From Clostridiales bacterium (GTDB taxonomy: Bacteria; Bacillota; Clostridia; Saccharofermentanales; Saccharofermentanaceae): a stretch of DNA of 64,000 bases. This document shows, in pieces, positions 11,200 to 13,207 of the stretch. Position numbers and translations under genes: made by a program. The notes below the pieces were generated by a model. The model was not told the DNA's origin. It was given only the letters and a program-made list of their open reading frames with translations, and made no database searches. Position 1 is the stretch's first letter; every line of letters starts with the position of its first letter. Location of the stretch: assembly GCA_017545245.1 (NCBI GenBank), contig JAFWPB010000063.1:62001-126000 (forward strand), read 5' to 3'.

Positions 11200-11214
11200 G
11201 ATATATTATAAAAT

Positions 11215-11249
11215 GAGGTCTTCTTTCGAAGACCTCTTCTGTTTTTTTT
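11215..11249. terminator. Bidirectional terminator between leuA and the reverse membrane gene
   Basis: GAGGTCTTC (11215-11223), loop TTTC, GAAGACCTC (11228-11236), then a T-rich run to 11249 on the forward strand. On the reverse strand the stem is followed by ATTTTAT, which is weaker. Confidence 0.85.
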
Positions 11250-11844
11250 ATGAATTACTGGTTGTGGCCACAGTCAATGATGTGTCTGATGGAATTGGTG
11301 TAATCGCTTCGGATTCCAATTGAATCTGTGCTTTTGTTGTTTCTGTGGCAAATGGATCGCTCTGTGTTAATTCTTTAATATCATCGATACCGATCATCTG
11401 TTTGTATTCGTCTGTATCCAGCTGCGGTACGAACCATCTGTATGCCATGATCAGGATCACCAGAATGATGCATGCCACCAGGATCCGTCGGATGATCAAT
11501 AAAGCTCTTTCTTTGCGATATTTACGGTTCACATACTCTTTGGTCGTATATCCGACAAGAACATAGACCTTGTGAATCGACTTTCTTTTCGGCATACGCT
11601 TCTTCTGAGCGATTTTTTCTTTGATTTTTGAGGAGATGTTACCTGGTAATGCTTTGAAAAAGTTCCATGTTGTATGTCCAAGGAACGCGAAAAAGCCAAG
11701 CACTGAAAATAATGCTTTTTCCCACCACGAATCACCTTTGGAAAGCTCATCGCTTTCGCTTTCTTGTTCCGGTATAGAATCTTCCTCTATTTCAGGCTCT
11801 TCGTAATTATCGTAATTTTCTTCTTCTAATTCTTCGTTATCCAT
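11248..11844 (-). CDS. Unknown single-pass membrane protein with acidic N-terminus
   Basis: About 198 residues, no family recognised. The first 40 are very acidic. A hydrophobic aromatic stretch (WWEKALFSVLGFFAFLG) follows near 40-60, then a strongly basic segment (about 68-118), one clear membrane helix near 120-140 (ILVACIILVILIMAYRW), and a Ser/Thr-rich tail. The frame could open at 11877, but the ATG at 11844 has GAAGGAAAG before it. An extended -10 (TGCTATAAT, 11866-11874) lies upstream. It sits just downstream of the small gene divergent from lexA, so it could share any SOS-driven transcript. Confidence 0.7.
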   Translation of the reverse strand: MDNEELEEENYDNYEEPEIEEDSIPEQESESDELSKGDSWWEKALFSVLGFFAFLGHTTWNFFKALPGNISSKIKEKIAQKKRMPKRKSIHKVYVLVGYTTKEYVNRKYRKERALLIIRRILVACIILVILIMAYRWFVPQLDTDEYKQMIGIDDIKELTQSDPFATETTKAQIQLESEAITPIPSDTSLTVATTSNS

Positions 11845-11893
11845 GATTCTTTCCTTCAAATCAGAATTATAGCACAACGAAAAGATCTATGCA

Positions 11894-12010
11894 TTACAAG
11901 TTAGTCAGTTGCAGATATCGCATGACGCTCAATATGGTCAGGATCAGCATTGTGCCTGTACAAGCGATCACGATCCGCAAAACGATGCGGTCAAAGTTGT
12001 TGTTTTTCAT
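11894..12010 (-). CDS. 38-residue single-helix membrane protein divergent from lexA
   Basis: A short frame on the reverse strand: ATG at 12010, stop TAA at 11894-11896, with AGGAG five bases before the ATG. The product starts MKNNNFDRIVLRIVIACTG. It has a short polar N-terminus, one hydrophobic helix at about 9-30 and a short tail. Its 5' end lies 24 bases from a LexA box. In other Firmicutes the gene divergent from lexA (yneA in Bacillus, sosA in Staphylococcus) encodes a small membrane-bound SOS division inhibitor. This one is much smaller and lacks a LysM domain. The SOS role is inferred from position and operators; no clear promoter is visible for it. Confidence 0.6.
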   Translation of the reverse strand: MKNNNFDRIVLRIVIACTGTMLILTILSVMRYLQLTNL

Positions 12011-12033
12011 GTTTTCTCCTGTTTTTCTGAATT

Positions 12034-12073
12034 CGAACAATCGTTTGACAAGGGGTCGAACAAATGTTAAGAT
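12034..12073 (+). promoter_or_regulatory. lexA promoter overlapped by two LexA boxes
   Basis: Consensus -35 TTGACA (12045-12050), a 17-base spacer and -10 TAAGAT (12068-12073). Box 1, CGAACAATCGTTTG (12034-12047), overlaps the -35. Box 2, CGAACAAATGTTAA (12057-12070), overlaps the -10. Both resemble the Gram-positive CGAAC-N4-GTTYG operator. This predicts LexA autorepression and possible control of the divergent small gene. Confidence 0.85.
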
Positions 12074-12104
12074 AAATGTATTAAAATCCCACGGAGGTTG
12101 AATT

Positions 12105-12749
12105 ATGAGTGTTTACAGGTTTACTAAGAGCAATCTGAATGAAACTTTGGAAATTATCTATTCCTTCATTGTGACCTACGTAAAGAAGGAAGGTTATCCT
12201 CCGTCCGTGCGTGAAATCTGTCAGGGAGTCGGAATCAAATCCACCTCCACCGTCCATGCCCATCTTCACAGACTGGTAGAGATGGATAAGATTGAATATG
12301 TACCCGGTAAGCGTCGTGCTATCCAGATCAAAGAGAGTCCGAAGAAGTCGTCTTTGATTATGACAACGACGAAGATTCCGCTTGTTGGAACAGTTACAGC
12401 TGGTCTTCCTATCCTTGCTGAGGAGAATATTGAAAGTTATATGTCCTTCCCTTCTGAGTATTTCGGTACTGCGGAATACTTTATGCTGAAGGTCAAGGGT
12501 GACAGTATGATCGAAGCACACATCATGGATGGTGATTTCGTGATCGTACGTCGTGATAACATGGCCAATATGAATCAGATAGTGGTCGCTCTTATCGGAA
12601 CCGAAGCGACGGTTAAGCGCCTATCTTACAAGGGTGGGCACGCTATACTGCTTCCTGCTAACCCGGCCTACTCACCGATTCCTTTTGATGACGATGATTG
12701 TCGTATTCTGGGTGTCGTGGAAGGTATTTTCCGCTCGAAGGTCAACTAA
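12105..12749 (+). CDS. lexA: LexA repressor
   Basis: The SOS repressor, 214 residues. The N-terminal winged helix-turn-helix (about 1-75) includes YPPSVREICQGVGIKSTSTVH. The self-cleavage site is the Ala-Gly pair in VTAGLP (99-100). The catalytic serine is in KGDSMIEAHI (about 134) and the lysine in ATVKRL (about 171). All residues needed for RecA-stimulated autocleavage are present. GGAGG precedes the ATG. The gene converges with hfq, leaving only 18 bases between stop codons and no clear terminator. Confidence 0.96.
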   Translation: MSVYRFTKSNLNETLEIIYSFIVTYVKKEGYPPSVREICQGVGIKSTSTVHAHLHRLVEMDKIEYVPGKRRAIQIKESPKKSSLIMTTTKIPLVGTVTAGLPILAEENIESYMSFPSEYFGTAEYFMLKVKGDSMIEAHIMDGDFVIVRRDNMANMNQIVVALIGTEATVKRLSYKGGHAILLPANPAYSPIPFDDDDCRILGVVEGIFRSKVN

Positions 12750-12767
12750 CCTTCTTATCTTCCTTTC

Positions 12768-13160
12768 TTATTCGACTATAATAGTTTCTTCATCGGGAAC
12801 CTGGCACATCTCCCCTTCCGGAATGACAAGCCTCTTCCCGTTTCTTGGTGAGATATAGTTGATGGAATGCTTGTAGATCAACAGTTGTGTCATATCGTTA
12901 TGAACAACGATCGTATCCTTGTCATATCCATCTATGACTCCGTCGATGATCTCGCCGGACTGTGTTACGATCTCCACGCTCGCGTATTCTTTCCGGCAGC
13001 AGTTCAGGAAGATTTCATGGACATGAATTGGCGTTCTTGTCGAATCTGTGCTACGCACATTGATCTGGTTGTTTTTCTTGTGGGGTGTCTTCTGTGGATG
13101 GGTCACATCATGCGCATTCGGCTTCATTTTCGGCTTCTTCAGCAAACTGGTATTCATCAT
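12768..13160 (-). CDS. hfq: Divergent Hfq-family RNA chaperone with N-terminal extension
   Basis: About 130 residues. Residues about 47-115 match the Sm fold of Hfq, including EIFLNCCRKEYASVEIV and the Sm2 signature YKHSI (96-100). Its place after miaA is typical of hfq. It has a basic, His/Lys/Pro-rich extension of about 45 residues. The usual proximal-site residues are changed: the Gln before xxFLN is His, and the DxF segment reads DKD instead of D(Q/N)F. The start is the ATG at 13160, five bases after GGAGG; the next ATG (13157) is also possible. It is the last gene of the miaB-mutS-mutL-miaA-hfq run. Confidence 0.82.
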   Translation of the reverse strand: MMNTSLLKKPKMKPNAHDVTHPQKTPHKKNNQINVRSTDSTRTPIHVHEIFLNCCRKEYASVEIVTQSGEIIDGVIDGYDKDTIVVHNDMTQLLIYKHSINYISPRNGKRLVIPEGEMCQVPDEETIIVE

Positions 13161-13207
13161 TCTTGCCTCCTTTTTCTTTGTGTGACAAGATGATATCACG
13201 ATTATTC

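Follow-up and report, generated by a model that had tools for sequence, protein, structure and literature searches.

The window, i.e., the whole 64,000-nucleotide stretch of DNA that was analyzed, carries a lexA gene and, divergent from it, a short open reading frame with its own ribosome-binding site:

11894-12010, minus strand: microprotein gene, 38 codons plus stop, MKNNNFDRIVLRIVIACTGTMLILTILSVMRYLQLTNL (ATG at 12010-12008, stop at 11896-11894)
12016-12020, minus strand: ribosome-binding site AGGAG in the sequence, five bases upstream of the microprotein ATG
12105-12749, plus strand: lexA, recognized by domain match and sequence motifs (HTH and S24 peptidase domains, TAG cleavage site, GDSM and VKR motifs)

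Past lexA the window continues with hfq, miaA and mutL. The product of the 38-codon frame has one hydrophobic stretch (17-residue mean KD of 2.39). A minus-strand frame of this length with an AGGAG site and a single membrane helix had been described in the first-pass annotation, and the description is borne out by the sequence and by hydropathy.

The locus was compared among 23 genomes of one genus, the window genome included, all of which have lexA. Named records of congeners describe metagenome-assembled genomes of Clostridiales, most of them of ruminant origin; one was deposited as Mageeibacillus sp. UBA3781. At this position 18 of the 23 genomes (the window and 17 others) carry an orthologue of the microprotein gene; these frames span 35 to 75 codons, and all 18 have an ATG, a Shine-Dalgarno (SD)-like sequence and one membrane helix as judged by hydropathy. 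A family HMM search of all congeners gave strong matches to these 18 loci and few others. Among close relatives, the microprotein frame shows an excess of synonymous changes and zero in-frame stops, whereas the other five frames of the same locus contain 28-145 stop-containing codon pairs. Furthermore, six independent pairs give a pN/pS of 0.30 (0.22-0.39) for the N-terminus and helix, which indicates purifying selection, and 0.55 (0.42-0.76) for the C-terminal tail, where constraint is relaxed.

A frame this short could have arisen by chance beside lexA, and the window protein has no family in Pfam, NCBIfam or PHROGs scans, which returned only weak scattered matches. A qualifying ORF was defined as one of at least 35 codons with an ATG, an SD-like sequence, a hydrophobic segment and a start within 80 nt of a LexA box. 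Such an ORF was found at 16 of the 18 gene-bearing loci, whereas dinucleotide shuffling of the same loci produced it in 1 of 7200 cases; at the two loci that failed, the real ORFs extend beyond the stretch tested. Together with the intact frame, the synonymous excess, the stops in the other five frames and the SD-preceded orthologues in 18 genomes, this result leads us to reject a chance ORF, which we regard as highly improbable. The 38-codon frame is almost certainly a real gene. The earlier claim of a small membrane-protein gene divergent from lexA thus stands, and the loss of the frame or its helix in relatives, named at that time as evidence that would count against it, was looked for; the frame has survived in 18 of 23 genomes.

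Between the two genes lie the following operator and promoter elements:

12034-12047, no strand: LexA box 1, CGAACAATCGTTTG, the shared operator, recognized by genus-wide conservation (window match CGAACAATCGTT at 12034)
12045-12073, plus strand: lexA promoter, TTGACA-17-TAAGAT, from a promoter scan
12057-12068, no strand: LexA box 2-like sequence, CGAACAAATGTT, overlapping the lexA -10 and present in 1 of 23 genus genomes
12069-12074, minus strand: candidate reverse -10, TATCTT, reciprocal to the lexA -10, from which a transcript would start near 12062

The bare pattern CGAAC-N4-GTT occurs four times in the window, where 2.1 matches are expected, and 18 of 100 shuffles reach four. Although the bare pattern is not rare, box 1 is certain because its core, GAAC-N4-GTT, is conserved in place in all 23 genus genomes (exactly as CGAACAATCGTTTG in 22). 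The core is also kept in six of seven loci from three sister genera. Judged from this conservation, box 1 is a real operator. The window genome has boxes of the same type ahead of recA (29 nt upstream) and of a putative repair gene, TIGR03915 (75 nt upstream), and the congeners checked have one immediately before dinB. The first-pass annotation had placed two LexA boxes over a consensus lexA promoter. The promoter and both sequences are indeed present and box 1 is conserved, but box 2 is not: in relatives only its right half is kept, and this half is the lexA -10. A second conserved LexA box is therefore rejected as a feature of the genus. Double boxes do occur at 11 of 36 loci in other families of the order.

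Genomes of the clade without the microprotein gene retain box 1 equally well. Since box 1 is lexA's own operator, needed by lexA and retained where the gene is absent, its conservation alone is no proof that it controls the microprotein. The start codon of the microprotein lies 20-59 nt from box 1 across species, and 20-30 nt from it in 14 of 18, with the SD sequence included in that gap. This geometry is the stronger argument for control: with so short a gap, any close promoter must overlap or cross the operator in most species. No canonical minus-strand sigma-A promoter was found in a mechanical scan. The strand opposite the lexA -10 reads TATCTT, in which the -11A and -7T positions are reciprocally paired, as in the bidirectional bacterial promoters that have been described (PMC10268837). 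This pairing suggests that the microprotein may be transcribed by reversed use of the lexA -10.

We consider it probable that the microprotein is under LexA control. A real gene could also be expressed outside the SOS response, from an unrecognized promoter or by antisense read-through across the lexA 5' end. The needs of lexA would by themselves explain the box in that case, and the failure to recognize a promoter is also in keeping with it; even such a transcript, however, must cross the LexA operator in most species, and we regard expression of this kind as quite unlikely.

The conservation of the helix marks it as more than a membrane anchor. Alignment column 18 is Ser or Cys in 18 of 18 orthologues, a uniformity reached in 0 of 20000 within-helix shuffles, which were not realigned; four alignment rows owe their register to one or two gaps close to the N-terminus. 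Column 22, four residues after column 18, is Met in 15 of 18, and column 26, eight residues after it, is a small residue in 17 of 18. Columns 18, 22 and 26 share one helix face, whose residues in the window protein are C17, M21 and T25. In addition, column 25 is Leu in 17 of 18 orthologues and column 13, at the helix start, is Trp or Arg in 16 of 18. The conserved face points to a specific helix-helix contact. Otherwise the helix is an ordinary, uncharged one. Beyond it, the window protein has only about 8 residues, and the tails of the orthologues vary in length, up to about 45 residues. The positive-inside rule predicts an N-in orientation for the window protein, and strongly basic tails in several orthologues blur the predicted topology.

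In Gram-positive bacteria the gene divergent from lexA codes for an SOS division inhibitor with a single transmembrane (TM) helix, and these inhibitors as a rule have little homology among themselves (PMC6851548). When compared with the kind formed by YneA, SosA, ChiZ and DivS, the microprotein has the lexA-divergent position and the single TM helix, but neither the extracellular C-terminal part nor the LysM domain of YneA and ChiZ. YneA (Bacillus) shares with it the lexA-adjacent site and the single helix, and ChiZ (Mycobacterium) the single helix. The YneA helix binds TM7 of FtsW and so reaches the divisome, while inhibition requires LysM (PMC13396833). The window microprotein has no LysM and no Pfam match, and no LysM proteins were detected in the 23 genus genomes by a search that was positive in 10 of 14 control genomes. 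With no detectable LysM, the genus has no detectable YneA. Genus-wide absence of detectable LysM is unusual for a Gram-positive-type lineage. SosA (Staphylococcus) is likewise a small one-helix protein divergent from lexA and without LysM; however, it has 77 aa and an extracellular tail that is essential, being inactive once most of the tail is removed (PMC6851548), whereas the tail of the window protein is about 8 residues and the longer tails of its orthologues are under relaxed constraint. Pfam and NCBIfam scans of the microprotein gave no match relevant to SosA.

Short LysM frames in the sister genus g5 were considered as YneA candidates and rejected, as those that were read are double-glycine-leader peptides without LexA boxes. 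These g5 peptides, 75-99 aa long with leaders such as NELNxVxGGA, look like bacteriocin-type secreted or signaling peptides.

Because the essential extracellular part is missing and operator control is only probable, we do not file the microprotein as YneA or SosA; a more fitting label is a new family of one-helix microproteins, divergent from lexA and restricted to the genus. Its likeness to YneA and SosA is one of gene position, and its anatomy is nearest to SidA of Caulobacter crescentus. SidA, an SOS-regulated inner-membrane protein of 29 residues, is also tiny and almost helix alone, and it inhibits division by binding FtsW (PMC4211646). It comes from another phylum, with no sequence relation shown, and the literature consulted does not place it beside lexA. 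As the tail required by YneA and SosA is absent from the microprotein, SidA would be the closest functional analogue. Two SEDS (FtsW/RodA) genes are present.

The best explanation as a whole is a LexA-repressed single-pass microprotein that docks at the septal complex and delays septation. In this sequence of events, RecA would trigger the self-cleavage of LexA and the shared operator would be cleared; the divergent transcript would then be made from a promoter overlapping the LexA box, probably the lexA -10 reused backwards. The microprotein would enter the membrane via its one helix, and the conserved face (S/C18, M22 and the small residue 26, next to L25) would dock on one of the membrane helices in the septal wall-synthesis complex, with FtsW as the likeliest partner, delaying septation until repair is complete. 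What we infer for the microprotein thus comprises its transcription, SOS induction, membrane topology, partner and division arrest. This full account is tentative, slightly more so than its core, that the microprotein is an SOS division inhibitor, to which we give a little less than an even chance; FtsW as the specific target is rather doubtful.

The minimal SOS division inhibitor put forward in the first-pass annotation fits, a reading which draws on position and anatomy. In its favor are the orthologues, the constraint on the helix, the fixed S/C18, box 1, the 20-30 nt gap, the lack of LysM and the SEDS genes. Against it stand the near absence of a tail, given that tail-poor SosA and LysM-less YneA are inactive (PMC6851548, PMC13396833), as well as the lack of a canonical promoter, the retention of the box without the gene, the loss of the gene in one clade and the basic tails.

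The helix face implies a protein partner but not its identity, and Pfam and NCBIfam scans gave the microprotein no sequence relation to any known inhibitor. It could accordingly be LexA-controlled and act on another membrane protein (a transporter, a protease or an envelope enzyme) or on repair physiology. This is an unlikely though appreciable alternative, weakened by the lexA-divergent position, which is the classical site of Gram-positive division inhibitors (PMC6851548). The microprotein might instead be an SOS-induced membrane-active peptide that lowers membrane potential and growth in the manner of DinQ and TisB, as E. coli has LexA-linked, SOS-regulated single-TM peptides of similar size (PMC3567139). 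DinQ and TisB are toxic membrane peptides paired with antisense RNAs. An uncharged, ordinary helix with one conserved face and orthologue tails up to about 45 residues argue against such a peptide, as does the lack of a known RNA family nearby (no Rfam families were found at 11200-12800), an undescribed antisense RNA being possible; we give this alternative a low probability.

Were the microprotein an active division inhibitor, it would follow that in a Gram-positive-type bacterium a bare helix can halt septal synthesis, and the microprotein would be a minimal ligand for studies of FtsW. It consists of little more than a helix, and in YneA the helix only targets the divisome.

The distribution of the gene can be traced on the LexA tree, where the five gene-less genomes of the genus group into one clade (support 99/98) that is nested among the gene-bearers. 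In this clade there is no visible replacement at the place of the microprotein gene, and the family HMM search of all congeners found no convincing copy elsewhere, the best match (E 0.003) lying inside a long frame. Sister genera g2-g4 and g5 lack the gene at their lexA locus, and it was not seen in three other sampled families of the order. Its absence from the sister genera means that the microprotein is not a general lexA partner. A single, recent gain at the base of the genus followed by a single loss explains the distribution. An older arrangement, in which lexA lies back to back with another single-TM protein, is found in g2-g4 and at most f2-f4 loci. The corresponding features of the window are:

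11248-11844, minus strand: single-TM protein with an RVYRLKGYTT-like motif, the older lexA neighbor in the order, from locus comparison across the order
11866-11871, minus strand: -10 TATAAT, extended TGTGC, of the single-TM neighbor's own promoter, kept across the genus

The neighbor's own promoter is TGTGCTATAAT, and the microprotein gene sits between it and the LexA box. We do not claim that the microprotein is a partial copy of this neighbor: the helices are vaguely alike by eye, and the family HMM gave no match at E ≤ 1.

These observations would be consistent with newly evolved, genus-specific, helix-only SOS inhibitors, arising between the LexA operator and an older neighbor in a LysM-less lineage, using nothing but the helix-helix contacts of their S/C-M-small face to block septal wall synthesis and expressed from the lexA promoter fired backwards; this combined proposal is speculative and seems to us somewhat improbable. 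The little homology among lexA-adjacent SOS division inhibitors (PMC6851548) suggests repeated origins, and here the gain, divergence and loss of a lexA-adjacent microprotein can be followed inside one genus. For annotation, the rule is to inspect tiny divergent frames behind the lexA operator.

Several minor observations were made at these loci. The order-wide lexA neighbor (11248-11844) carries an RVYRLKGYTTVxKINRK-like motif and has no Pfam or NCBIfam match above chance. In g5, the lexA-divergent gene encodes a soluble protein of roughly 160-250 residues, and the one representative scanned has no Pfam or NCBIfam family above chance. One g5-labeled genome, with 7% contamination, contains a second lexA locus near the gene-less g1 clade, probably on a misbinned contig. 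Finally, the window Hfq (12771-13199, minus strand) has about 60 residues before the Hfq domain when read from the first start, and its true start may be later.
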